Positions 50,589-54,232 of a DNA stretch of 64,000 bases are shown here, in pieces. The notes beneath the pieces are model-generated. The model did not search any database. It was not told the DNA's origin and worked only from the letters and a program-made list of their open reading frames with translations. Every line of letters begins with the position of its first letter. Within the stretch, counting starts at the first letter, position 1. Position numbers and translations under genes: made by a program. Source of the stretch: Arthrobacter sp. D5-1 (GTDB lineage: Bacteria > Actinomycetota > Actinomycetes > Actinomycetales > Micrococcaceae); assembly GCF_017357425.1 (NCBI RefSeq), contig NZ_CP014571.1:1798001-1862000 (forward strand). The letters run 5' to 3'.

Positions 50589-51557
50589 ATGGATGAAACC
50601 CCTGCAGTTCCCGCCCAGCAGTCCACAGCTGCCGGTGCTACCGTGACCGCCTCAAGCCTTGCTGGGCTGACGTTTTCCAAGGGCCATGGAACGGGCAACG
50701 ACTTCGTCCTGATTGCCGACCCCGGCGATGCCCACGAGATCACCCCGGAGCAGGTTGCCCAATTATGCGACCGCCATGTAGGCATTGGAGGAGACGGTCT
50801 TATCCGCGCTGTCCCGTCGCGGTTCCTTCCGGAGGGTCGGGACCTTCTGGAGCAGGACCCGGACGCCGAGTGGTTCATGGATTACCGCAACGGCGATGGT
50901 TCCCTCTCGGAGATGTGCGGTAACGGCGTCCGCGTCTTCGTGCACTTCTTGATTGCGGAAAAACTGGTGGATCTTGGCCCGGGCGAAACCCTGACCATCG
51001 GCACCCGTGGCGGGGTCAAGAAAGTGGTCCGTACGGCCAACGGGTATGCCGTGGACATGGGCCCATGGGAGTTCATCTTCCCCAAGGAAGCCACCACCAA
51101 GGCAATGGACGCATTGGTCAGCGCTGACGGTCTGGAAGTAGCCCGTCCGGGCCTCTCAGTCAGCATGGGCAACCCCCACACTGTGGTTGCTTTGGCCGAA
51201 CTCAAGGAGCTGTCGGCCACGCAATTGTTCAAGGCGCCGGTGGTCGATCCCAAGCCTGTCAACGGGACCAACGTTGAATTCGTTGTTCCGGCCGAACCGT
51301 TGGTTGAAGACGGCGTCGGCACCATCACCATGCGTGTCCATGAGCGCGGCGTGGGGGAGACCCAATCATGCGGCACAGGAGCCTGCGCGGCCGCCGTCGC
51401 CATCCGTCATTGGGCCGGCAACACCGCGCCGAACGATTGGCACGTTAAGGTGCCGGGCGGCGTCGTGGGTGTTAAGTTCTTCCCCGGTGCAGGTGGCCGC
51501 GAACATGTAGAGCTCAGCGGCCCGGCCGTGATCGTGGCTACTGGGACGCTTTCCTGA
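50589..51557 (+). CDS. dapF: Diaminopimelate epimerase
   Basis: Cofactor-independent epimerase converting LL- to meso-DAP. 322 residues: [16 protein letters not shown], the first active-site Cys in [15 protein letters not shown], the second in [18 protein letters not shown], and SMGNPHTVV. The ~25-residue N-terminal extension and insertion around 80-95 are usual in actinobacteria. Its 3' end overlaps the convergent methyltransferase gene by 20 bases. Confidence 0.96.
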
Positions 51558-52152
51558 CCCGGATGATCCTGAAGGACTTGGACGTGCTCTCCCGGCCCAC
51601 CGTGTAGCTCTTGTCCAGCTCGCCGGCGAGCCACCGCTGGAGGGAGTCCGAGCCAAGGTTCTTTTGAACCACCAACCAGGCGTTTCCTCCCGGGGCCAGG
51701 CGCGGCAGCCACGTCAGCAGCAGGGTGTGCAGCTCGTCCTTGCCGATGCGGATAGGCGGGTTGGACCAGATGGTGTCGAACTCGACGGCGGCGTCTACCT
51801 CGTGCGGCAGGCTCGCCGTCACGTTGTCCAGACCCAGGGCAGCCGCGTTCTCATTGGTCAACGTGACACACCGCTCATTGACGTCCACGGCGTGCACCTT
51901 GGCGTGGGGGGCCATCAGCCCCAGCGTCAAGGCAATAGGACCCCAGCCGCAGCCGATGTCCAACAAGTTTCCCTGGGGTGAAGGCGGCGGAACTTCGGAG
52001 AAGAGTATGGCAGTGCCCTTGTCCACTCCGTCGGGACTGAAGATGCCGGAGGAGGTCTGCAAGTGGCGTGTGGCTCCAGCGAGTTCCACCGTGAGTGGCT
52101 TTCGGGTGAATGGTCCGGCCGGTTGGGCGGTGAAATAGTGTGCAGACTCCAT
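51538..52152 (-). CDS. Class I SAM-dependent methyltransferase, RsmC-like (small)
   Basis: 204 residues: [26 protein letters not shown], then motif [23 protein letters not shown], motif [20 protein letters not shown], and the NPPIR tetrapeptide ([31 protein letters not shown]). This is the N-terminally short RsmC/RlmG-like group that methylates guanines in rRNA; the exact rRNA site is unknown. The minus-strand TAATCT lies eight bases before ATG 52152. The 3' end overlaps the dapF stop by 20 bases. Confidence 0.85.
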
Positions 52153-52225
52153 AATTTGCCAGATTAGTTGGCTATCGGCGCCATGGGAAACTGCCCGCCC
52201 GAAGAGCTGGCTTGACATTGGATGA

Positions 52226-52238
52226 TAGTGTGAAACGC
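52226..52238 (+). promoter_or_regulatory. -10 box TAGTGT placed before the MFLIFE micro-ORF
   Basis: TAGTGT, seven bases (GAAACGC), then ATG 52239: the same spacing as the leaderless genes in the window. TTGACA at 52212-52217 is too close (8 bp) to be its -35. Confidence 0.4.
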
Positions 52239-52259
52239 ATGTTCTTGATCTTCGAGTAA
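52239..52259 (+). CDS. Putative six-residue leader peptide MFLIFE upstream of hflX
   Basis: ATG TTC TTG ATC TTC GAG TAA encodes Met-Phe-Leu-Ile-Phe-Glu. The AUG would be the first or near-first codon of a leaderless transcript. Its stop is only three bases before a strong hairpin (52263-52298), and hflX lies 410 bases downstream. This is the geometry of ribosome-dependent attenuators. Hydrophobic short leader peptides are a common form of drug-stalling sequence, but that is inference only and the six codons could be chance. Confidence 0.35.
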   Translation: MFLIFE

Positions 52260-52669
52260 AAAGCCGCCACCCGCCTGAGCACTCAGGCGTCACTCGGCAC
52301 CGCCCGCGATGCAGCCCGGTCCCTGGCAGTTCTGCCAAGCCCCGGTCTTTCCGCCAGGCAGGTCCCACCGGCACATCCGTTGACCCGCGTTCCCCGTCAC
52401 GGATGTCTTGAAGATCACACTCCAGCCCAGCCCTCTGAACCGTCAGCATCCTGTGCGGTCCAGGTAAGCCGGCAGTGCAATCTCCAGATAGCCAGGAACC
52501 TCGACGCGGATCCCACCACGCCAGATCACAGCAGCCGCCGCCCACTCCACGGGCGGCCGTTCAGCACAGGAGGCCCTCTTTGGCCCATGCCCGTCAGCCC
52601 AGCGCGAATAGCGCCCCATTGAACAGCAAACAGCACTATTCTGGAATAGCCGAACAGTCTAAGGAGACC
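52260..52669 (+). promoter_or_regulatory. Long structured leader of hflX
   Basis: About 410 bases without a recognisable gene. First hairpin: CGCCTGAG at 52272 pairs with CTCAGGCG at 52282, extended by GCCG/CGGC at 52263 and 52295. Second: CCGG-TGGCA / TGCCA-CCGG, 52316-52345, followed by TCTTT. A third stem is GCCGCCC/GGGCGGC at 52537 and 52551. TATTCT at 52637 could be a second, hflX-proximal promoter. AAGGAG precedes the hflX ATG. The region may be an attenuator; no Rfam-type element is recognised. Confidence 0.4.
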
Positions 52670-54232
52670 ATGACCACCCAGAAGCATTCCGGATCCGATT
52701 CCGACGCCCAGGACATGAGTCCTGAACAAATCCAGGCCGTCATCGACCGGATTCTTTCCAAGGACGTACCTGCGCAAGCATCCGATAACGACGATGCCGG
52801 TGGTGTGTTCGGCAAGGCACAGGCCATTTCCACACTTGACCAGGAACACAGCATCTACGACGGCGACCAGGAAGACCTGGCCGAGCGTCGTGCACTGCGC
52901 CGTACGGCTGGCTTGTCCACGGAACTCGAAGACGTCACCGAGGTTGAATACCGGCAGCTGCGCCTTGAGCGCGTTGTCCTGGCCGGCCTCTGGACCGAGG
53001 GGACACTGGCCGACGCTGAAAATTCACTCCGCGAGCTCGCTGCCCTGGCAGAGACTGCCGGTTCGGAAGTCCTTGACGGTTTGGTGCAGCGGCGAACGAA
53101 GCCGGACCCAGGGACCTTCCTGGGGTCGGGCAAGGCCCAGGAGCTCAAGGACATCGTTGCCGCCACCGGTGCGGACACCGTAGTGGTGGATACCGAGTTG
53201 GCTCCTTCCCAACGCCGTGGCCTTGAGGACATTGTCAAGGTCAAGGTAGTAGACCGCACCACGCTGATCCTGGACATCTTCGCCCAGCACGCCAAGAGCC
53301 GTGAAGGCAAAGCCCAGGTTGAGCTTGCGCAGCTCGAGTACCTGCTCCCGCGCCTTCGTGGTTGGGGCGACTCCATGTCACGCCAGGCCGGTGGCCAGGT
53401 GGGTGGGGCTGGTGCCGGCATGGGTTCGCGTGGTCCTGGTGAAACCAAGATCGAACTGGACCGTCGTCGCATCCGCACCCGCATGGCCAAGCTTCGCCGT
53501 GAGATCGCCGCGATGAAGCCGGCGCGCGAGACCAAGCGCGCCAACCGCCGTCGTAATGCCGTTCCTTCCGTCGCAATCGCCGGATACACGAACGCCGGCA
53601 AGTCATCGCTCCTGAACCGCCTCACCGACGCTGGTGTGCTGGTGGAGAACGCCCTGTTCGCCACCTTGGATCCCACCGTCCGTAAAGCCCAAACGCCGGA
53701 TGGCATCGGCTACACGTTGGCGGACACTGTGGGGTTTGTCCGTTCGTTGCCGACCCAGCTGATTGAAGCCTTCCGCTCCACCTTGGAAGAAGTGGCGGAC
53801 GCAGACCTGATCCTGCACGTAGTGGACGCCTCGCATCCTGATCCCGAAGGCCAGATTGCTGCTGTCCGGGAGGTCTTCACAGAGGTGGATGCCCGCAAGG
53901 TGCCCGAGATCATCGTCCTGAACAAGGTTGATGTCGCGGATCCCTTCGTCGTTGAGCGCCTGAAGCAGAAGGAACCGCGTCATGCGGTTGTTTCTACACG
54001 CACTGGCCAAGGCATCGCCGAACTGCTGGAAGACATCAGCCGGTCCATTCCCCGCCCGGGGGTGCGCCTGGAGCTTCTCATTCCCTACGACCGCGGCGAA
54101 ATGATCAGCAAGCTCCACAGCTCCGACTCGGAAATCCTCACCCTCGAGCACGAGGAAAACGGGACCCGTGTTGTTGTCATGGTCCGCGAAGGACTGGCAG
54201 CCGAACTGGAGCCGTTCGTCACCAATGGTTGA
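52670..54232 (+). CDS. hflX: GTPase HflX
   Basis: Ribosome-associated GTPase that splits stalled or stressed 70S ribosomes. 520 residues: HflX N-terminal domain (GSEVLDGLVQRRTKPDPGTFLGSGKAQELKD; DTELAPSQRRGLEDIVKVKVVDRTTLILDIFAQHAKSREGKAQVELAQLEYLLPRL), Gly-rich linker (GGQVGGAGAGMGSRGPGETKIE) and the G domain with G1 AGYTNAGKSSLLN, G3 DTVGF, G4 NKVD. A ~60-residue N-terminal acidic/Gln-rich extension is lineage-specific. ATG 52670 follows AAGGAG. In mycobacteria hflX is part of the WhiB7 antibiotic response. Confidence 0.95.
   Translation: MTTQKHSGSDSDAQDMSPEQIQAVIDRILSKDVPAQASDNDDAGGVFGKAQAISTLDQEHSIYDGDQEDLAERRALRRTAGLSTELEDVTEVEYRQLRLERVVLAGLWTEGTLADAENSLRELAALAETAGSEVLDGLVQRRTKPDPGTFLGSGKAQELKDIVAATGADTVVVDTELAPSQRRGLEDIVKVKVVDRTTLILDIFAQHAKSREGKAQVELAQLEYLLPRLRGWGDSMSRQAGGQVGGAGAGMGSRGPGETKIELDRRRIRTRMAKLRREIAAMKPARETKRANRRRNAVPSVAIAGYTNAGKSSLLNRLTDAGVLVENALFATLDPTVRKAQTPDGIGYTLADTVGFVRSLPTQLIEAFRSTLEEVADADLILHVVDASHPDPEGQIAAVREVFTEVDARKVPEIIVLNKVDVADPFVVERLKQKEPRHAVVSTRTGQGIAELLEDISRSIPRPGVRLELLIPYDRGEMISKLHSSDSEILTLEHEENGTRVVVMVREGLAAELEPFVTNG

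Follow-up and report, generated by a model that had tools for sequence, protein, structure and literature searches.

Control of hflX by an upstream ORF has been documented in Listeria (PMC6310831) and proposed in the Bacillales (PMC8632094). According to the account in PMC6310831, the Listeria monocytogenes gene hflXr (lmo0762) is governed by the attenuator rli80, which combines a 14-codon leader ORF bearing an RLR motif with a classical terminator, and its induction by lincomycin and erythromycin was shown there. The uORFC-6-1 motif of the Bacillales is presented in PMC8632094 as a conserved uORF (Arg-Leu-Arg) together with an RNA structure upstream of hflX. Macrolide- or ketolide-bound ribosomes are described as stalling on MRL- and RxR-type peptides (PMC8298421, PMC4335068). 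In the open-access literature (PMC, exclusive of subscription papers and preprints), we found neither an Arthrobacter hflX leader nor a six-codon leaderless attenuator described. Leaderless short cysteine-rich ORFs serve as attenuators in mycobacteria, where amino acids are sensed through the cysteine codons.

We analyzed a 64,000-nt window of the Arthrobacter sp. D5-1 genome, in which hflX (520 aa) occupies 52670..54232 on the plus strand and has the Shine-Dalgarno sequence AAGGAG at 52661-52666. Its product, which from knowledge of the HflX family we take to be a ribosome-splitting GTPase, has a single full-length relative in each genome of the family. We lean towards reading the 431-nt leader of this gene as a ribosome-occupancy attenuator. 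An earlier note on this DNA had placed a TAGTGT element seven bases ahead of an ATG at 52239, within a 517-bp gap to the left of hflX, and the sequence bears this out. Following TAGTGT (52226-52231), the plus strand carries a leaderless six-codon micro-ORF, ATG TTC TTG ATC TTC GAG TAA (MFLIFE*; 52239..52259, stop at 52257-52259), whose start lies 431 nt upstream of hflX; the gap has the claimed length when measured to a minus-strand methyltransferase gene with a likely start at 52152. The pattern TGN-TANNNT-N7-ATG marks a predicted distal promoter, P1p, with the extended -10 TGA-TAGTGT at 52223..52231 (plus strand), and its predicted transcription start is the A of the ATG at 52239.

The conserved part of this putative promoter is the extended -10. 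A TTGACA upstream of it was considered as a -35 and rejected, as it sits just 8 nt ahead of TAGTGT and is retained in part of the genus only, being absent across much of it. The divergent methyltransferase gene (51538-52152, minus strand, start near 52152) also looks leaderless, with a TAATCT shortly ahead of its ATG (region 52140-52231).

The micro-ORF exceeds chance expectation. The pattern TGA-TAGTGT-N7-ATG with a stop within 15 codons occurs once on both strands of the 64-kb window, none of 3000 first-order Markov sequences modelled on the gap contained such a site, and a relaxed pattern with up to 2 mismatches identified a single micro-ORF site in the whole genome. A search for further copies of MFLIFE returned only the one in its own genome, while the exact pattern was found in 2 of 120 family genomes, both of the same genus.

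Of 198 same-genus genomes, 196 gave a match in a DNA search with positions 52180-52700 of the window. We examined 130 leaders from the 196 matching genomes, comprising the 30 best loci and 100 picked from the match list. The match covered the micro-ORF in 22 of the 130 and only hflX-proximal DNA in the other 108, which were consequently not selected for the micro-ORF. The earlier note had tied its proposal to conservation of the micro-ORF among relatives, and a leaderless micro-ORF was indeed found upstream of hflX in all 130 leaders. Six codons begin at exactly N7 after TANNNT in 127 of 130, a set whose definition includes the exact N7 spacing, and TGN precedes TANNNT in all 127. Two leaders encode MILNFK at N6 spacing (L167 and L187), and in another the micro-ORF is cut to MFLI followed by a stop (L170).

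Across the 127 leaders, the distance from micro-ORF to hflX ranges from 259 to 502 nt. The peptide is MFLIFE in 96 cases, MILISK in 8, MFLNFK in 7, MILNFK in 5, MFLNSK in 3 and MILIFK in 2, with six singletons (MFLVFE, MILNFQ, MFLNFR, MLINFK, MFMIFE and MFLTFK). The codons vary synonymously, with Leu3 written as TTG (79) or CTG (46) and Phe5 as TTC (75) or TTT (41), while the stop is TAG (86) or TAA (41) and never TGA.

Elsewhere in the family, 12 of 27 loci outside the genus (L076-L102) have an ATG-start leaderless micro-ORF before hflX, the TG of the extended -10 being missing in 3 of these 12. Their peptides are MFTS, MFTL, MKNK, MKK, MLSFL (two), MLIFL, MLLFI, MFLFT, MTFFHS and two of 15 codons (MILTQRVYTRIRFVG and MILTQRVLIRIRFVG). 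Among 80 loci from named genomes, 43 carry a leaderless micro-ORF and 37 do not. The MFLIFE type is present in 30 of these loci, from Arthrobacter, Paenarthrobacter and Pseudarthrobacter records, and a micro-ORF was found in 29 of 29 loci of the Arthrobacter/Paenarthrobacter/Pseudarthrobacter type and in one further. MRLFK is encoded in two Sinomonas loci, MRLYRI in a Nesterenkonia and MTFIFV in Glutamicibacter nicotianae; five non-MFLIFE micro-ORFs of named genomes, MRLFK and MRLYRI included, have no extended -10 and are therefore less certain. As a control, we searched 73 genomes of other families of the order, fetched 24 loci and obtained 23 with usable upstream DNA; by scan, none of these 23 has a leaderless micro-ORF. 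The trait therefore seems restricted to the Micrococcaceae, within which the peptide can vary freely. Two Micrococcaceae-like hflX loci (L251 and L226) belong to public entries named Vibrio cholerae strain 35D and Acidobacteria MAG, which are probably mislabelled or contaminated contigs.

Micro-ORFs with MRL or RxR motifs occur at L232, L236, L268, L097, L100, L111 and L260 (Sinomonas, Nesterenkonia and other family members), with peptides such as MRLFK, MRLYRI, MILTQRV..RIRFVG and MWIRPTQYARPRFAA. The RxR motif is limited, among sister-genus micro-ORFs, to L097, L100, L111 and L260. These ORFs are candidate macrolide/ketolide-arrest leaders of the kind described in PMC8298421 and PMC4335068.

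Complementarity and co-change show that the nucleotides of the micro-ORF are one strand of a predicted, co-changing long-range helix, P1, which is a second role of the micro-ORF and one absent from the earlier note. In the window, the 5′ strand TGATCTTCGAG (52246..52256, plus strand), inside the micro-ORF, pairs with the anti-ORF element CTTGAAGATCA (52407..52417, plus strand) over 11 bp that include one G-U, and homologues of this element co-change with the micro-ORF between clades. For the window's leader alone (L001), the duplex has p = 0.023. The relatives' anti-ORF element sits 90-165 nt past the micro-ORF stop and takes three main registers, GAAGATCA in clade A (the window's), ACTCGAAAGTCAG in clade B and ACTTGGA in clade C; in L029, L030, L033 and L035, the start codon itself is paired.

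Between clades, TTCGAGT goes with ACTCGA(A/G), while TTCAAGT and TCCAAGT go with ACTTGGA, so that two positions are altered on both sides. The underlying alignment was built with MAFFT from 79 clade B/C loci without using complementarity; L069 was dropped for a gap (78 kept), and at least 6 visibly misaligned rows were retained. Paired cells amount to 95% over the 78 loci and 85% over the 23 distinct rows, compared to 49-52% when the strands are slid by one. Shuffles average 81.5% as against 85%, and 3 of 2000 were as good, with relatedness uncorrected; the margin is small because many swaps still yield G-U pairs.

We also evaluated pairing within individual leaders. When the ORF was tested for duplexes against the whole leader, without choosing a window, p<=0.05 was reached by 46 of 127 leaders and 112 fell on the better side of the median; with the reversed ORF, these numbers dropped to 12 and 55. 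A post hoc window duplex test was positive in 30 of 70 leaders, versus 2 of 68 in the neighbouring window, and a cruder longest-helix count in the chosen window found at least 8 bp in 89 of 127, versus 44 of 127 when the ORF was matched to a leader of another codon-6 class. Exchanging ORFs between clades gave -7.9 for clade-C ORFs with clade-B leaders (-12.5 at home) and -12.4 for clade-B ORFs with clade-C leaders (-15.9 at home); clade-A ORFs scored -13.5 with clade-B leaders and -12.9 with their own, and thus the swap control is not clean.

Left to choose freely, RNAalifold recovered P1 as a consensus helix in subsets from clade B (38 leaders), clade A (29) and clade C (22). The clade-A subset holds 29 of 48 loci, the remaining 19 having been left out for their different layout; the clade B and C subsets were chosen by the presence of ACTCGA(A/G) or ACTTGG, and because the loci were picked by the anti-ORF element, their consensus folds are not independent of the P1 claim. 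On mixed sets (the 48 clade-A-like loci; all 127), RNAalifold returned no structure. Among 26 tests in other genera, two loci were clear (L080 and L249, p<0.005) and L227 gave p 0.03, while an 8-bp complementarity lies at a comparable place in L234 and L244; in the remaining other-genus loci, pairing did not exceed that of shuffles (12 of 13 and 11 of 13 in two sets). Since the ORF nucleotides form one strand of P1, a ribosome on the micro-ORF should block the helix.

Several steps would turn this competition into control of hflX, and the attenuator mechanism is likely in outline. RNA polymerase would start at the A of the micro-ORF's ATG, as the promoter spacing suggests, and a message beginning with a start codon would be taken up by a ribosome immediately. 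The six codons would be read fast, and once the ribosome leaves, the micro-ORF RNA would pair with the anti-ORF element some 150 nt downstream, so that P1 gives the leader its OFF shape and less transcription proceeds into hflX. A ribosome held on the micro-ORF, for example by a peptidyl-transferase-centre antibiotic, would block P1 and free the anti-ORF strand for downstream pairing (hairpin T in 40 clade-B relatives, described below), and the long hflX transcript would then be made, while a proximal promoter would supply a basal hflX level. That a ribosome on the ORF means ON is proposed by analogy with Listeria hflXr as portrayed in PMC6310831. Here we infer translation of the micro-ORF, blocking of P1 by the ribosome's footprint and the effect on transcription; a ribosome on the micro-ORF should change the shape of the RNA and probably the output of hflX. 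Any ribosome stopped on the six-codon ORF would cover the P1 strand, which would account for the drift of the peptide (MFLIFE, MILISK, MKK, MFTS) while the pairing is kept.

Most known macrolide-arrest peptides need more than six codons, whereas lincosamides, phenicols and pleuromutilins stop the first peptide bonds. If drugs play a role at all, these three classes would therefore be the better candidates as inducers. MFLIFE contains neither a known arrest motif nor Arg/Lys-X-Arg/Lys. The translation-sensing attenuator of the earlier note survives in part: a leaderless, translated-looking micro-ORF, found in 130 of 130 cases, does head a long, structured and conserved leader, with the switch-type helix P1, but MFLIFE lacks Arg-X-Arg/RLR, and a simple scan of 52150-52720 found no intrinsic terminator in the window's leader. 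A C-rich, G-poor stretch with negative GC skew runs from the anti-ORF element to the proximal region (52418..52560, plus strand), and C outnumbers G in all 127 leaders. This stretch is a possible Rho loading site, and leaders of such composition would suit Rho-dependent ends in the OFF state.

In clade B, the anti-ORF strand has a second potential partner. Together with the five bases preceding it, it can pair with RNA just downstream to form a hairpin, T, in all 40 clade-B leaders of a set selected for the ACTCGA element. The arms of T are GCCGGA/UCCGGC outside and CGAAAG/CUUUCG inside, with matched changes to GGGCAA/UUGCCC, GGCAGU/GCUGCC and CGCCGG/CCGGCG; in the P1 state, a helper GCCGG pairs with CCGGC directly past the micro-ORF stop. 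Because both use the same anti-ORF strand, T and P1 are predicted to be mutually exclusive in this clade. Support for hairpin T is moderate, as its fold surpasses shuffles (p<=0.05) in 15 of 40 leaders (mean z -1.55) and its outer-arm energies differ little between matched and swapped arms (-12.9 vs -12.0 kcal/mol). We found no consensus equivalent of T in clade A or clade C.

With 41% U and 85% pyrimidine, where the leaders overall have 18% and 58%, the tail of T looks like that of a terminator, which would reverse the direction of control. In clade B, this U-rich tail speaks for the opposite sign: T would be the terminator, P1 the antiterminator, and a ribosome on the micro-ORF would cause termination. 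Leaderless messages are read by 70S ribosomes. If free 70S ribosomes became scarce (stalled, drug-bound or hibernating), leaderless initiation would cease, P1 would form and hflX would be on, so that the micro-ORF would measure free 70S ribosomes, HflX's own splitting substrate. The reversed sign gains from the use of one strand by both T and P1 in clade B and from the wide peptide differences between genera, which fit occupancy better than a specific nascent chain. However, T was not recovered in the clade to which the window belongs, the MRL and RxR micro-ORFs of sister genera suggest stalling peptides, and the known hflXr and erm leaders, as characterized in PMC6310831 and PMC4335068, have the other sign. 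Overall, we consider the reversed sign unlikely, although it is the foremost alternative. We consider equally doubtful a feedback loop in which the micro-ORF, with a leaderless start that intact 70S particles alone would read, is a free-70S gauge that controls, via P1, the gene of a 70S-splitting factor, its peptide being nearly irrelevant. If true, six codons and a single long-range helix would together sense the state of ribosomes, and this sensor would have been kept across Arthrobacter-type genera.

The earlier note had also described two hairpins past the micro-ORF and looked to conservation of their stems. Both hairpins appear in the predicted fold of the first 129 nt, but that fold is of ordinary stability (-43.2 kcal/mol, z -1.5), being equalled by 19 of 200 shuffles, and they are not the best conserved parts of the leader. 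The first (52263..52298, plus strand), directly past the micro-ORF, is variable, being absent or much shorter in L008, L018, L023 and L025, whereas the second (52316-52345) turns out to be the tip of a better conserved element, GCGATGCAG...stem...TTTCCGC, at 52306..52354 (plus strand). Its pattern, GCGAYGCAGG...TTTCCGC, is found in 118 of 127 leaders in strict form and in 124 of 127 in relaxed form, with only two further matches elsewhere in this genome. The element has a conserved internal loop. No Rfam 15 family was identified with covariance models, the hits to RF02243 (window region, L080) lying below threshold and at chance level. By direct sequence reading, another hairpin lies just ahead of the anti-ORF strand (52373..52406, plus strand; ACATCCGT at 52373-52380 with ACGGATGT at 52399-52406), present in the individual L001 fold and not in the clade-A consensus.

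Conservation of the GCGAYGCAGG...TTCCGC element and of P1 would also be expected of an RNA folded to bind a ligand, whether a metabolite or a protein such as HflX itself, with the micro-ORF contributing only a 5′ strand and a start signal. Yet 127 of 130 leaders keep an ATG at N7 spacing, a length of six codons and a stop, with synonymous variation (TTG/CTG, TTC/TTT, TAA/TAG), and RNA structure alone would not require ORF features; a ligand-binding RNA is thus improbable. Still less probable, to the point of being barely credible, is action by the peptide itself in the manner of E-peptides, short hydrophobic sequences that render ribosomes macrolide-tolerant. Short and hydrophobic, MFLIFE, MLLFI and MTFIFV do resemble E-peptides, but related genera have MKK, MKNK or MFTS instead, and the leader pairing, which would play no part, changes in step with the codons. 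Our literature search on E-type peptides returned no relevant paper.

The ribosome-occupancy attenuator would operate alongside a proximal promoter. A -10-like TATTCT at 52637..52642 (plus strand), with a predicted start near 52650, is found at this site in 129 of 130 leaders, and other genera have TACGAT, TAGAAT, TAACAT and similar hexamers at the same place (by eye, plus-strand loci only). Part of hflX transcription may therefore bypass the leader. With this promoter-like element perhaps able to serve hflX alone and the divergent gene (51538-52152) close by, the micro-ORF could be an unregulated leftover of a promoter shared with that gene, but its retention over 130 genomes alongside a conserved leader makes this very hard to believe.

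An AGGAGG with a TTG start at 52568..52582 (plus strand), 30 codons upstream of and in frame with the ATG at 52670, could yield an N-extended HflX encoded by the long transcript only. An in-frame upstream start with a Shine-Dalgarno-like motif is present in 122 of 130 leaders (120 at -90; 82 ATG, 40 TTG). The block 52568-52670 is conserved at the DNA level even where frame or start is lost, and the N-terminal extension was rejected as the sole cause of hflX-proximal conservation, since 8 of 130 leaders lack the frame or the start and still have the conserved core. Within this block, CAGCCCAGCGCGAA (52590-52612) recurs in 123 of 130 leaders about 44 nt ahead of the proximal TATTCT and is perhaps a regulator site of the proximal promoter.

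If the ribosome-occupancy attenuator is correct, control of hflX by drugs or ribosome state extends to a large soil genus, and two questions become testable: what the minimum length of an attenuator ORF is, and whether the act of leaderless initiation can by itself sense the state of ribosomes. The locus shares with Listeria hflXr an hflX homologue, a short leader ORF and, here by prediction, ORF RNA engaged in alternative structures; unlike the system described in PMC6310831, it has six codons, is leaderless, and lacks the RLR motif and, in the window, a canonical terminator. With uORFC-6-1 it shares a conserved uORF and RNA structure before hflX, found by comparison, but as that motif is presented in PMC8632094 its structure lies wholly downstream of the uORF start, whereas in the Micrococcaceae the micro-ORF is itself a strand of the long-range helix. 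The very short leader ORF of a ribosome-drug gene recalls the erm(K), mef(E) and msr leaders (PMC4335068, PMC8298421), and the sister-genus peptides MRLFK and MRLYRI recall their MRL core; the ORFs described there have ribosome-binding sites and at least eight codons, while MFLIFE has no +X+ motif. As for the RLR and +X+ leader peptides, the leader ORF here precedes a ribosome-rescue gene. Actinobacterial uORF control within a long leader is shared with the mycobacterial whiB7 uORF and ilvB1 attenuators (PMC13236596, PMC10937400), which in those accounts concern other genes and other leaders, the hflX leader here not being that of WhiB7. The mycobacterial cysteine-rich attenuators likewise place a leaderless short ORF upstream of the gene, although MFLIFE has no cysteine codons. 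Compared to the open-access literature, the proposed design would be new, a leaderless ORF of six codons in which the coding nucleotides also serve as a regulatory RNA strand.
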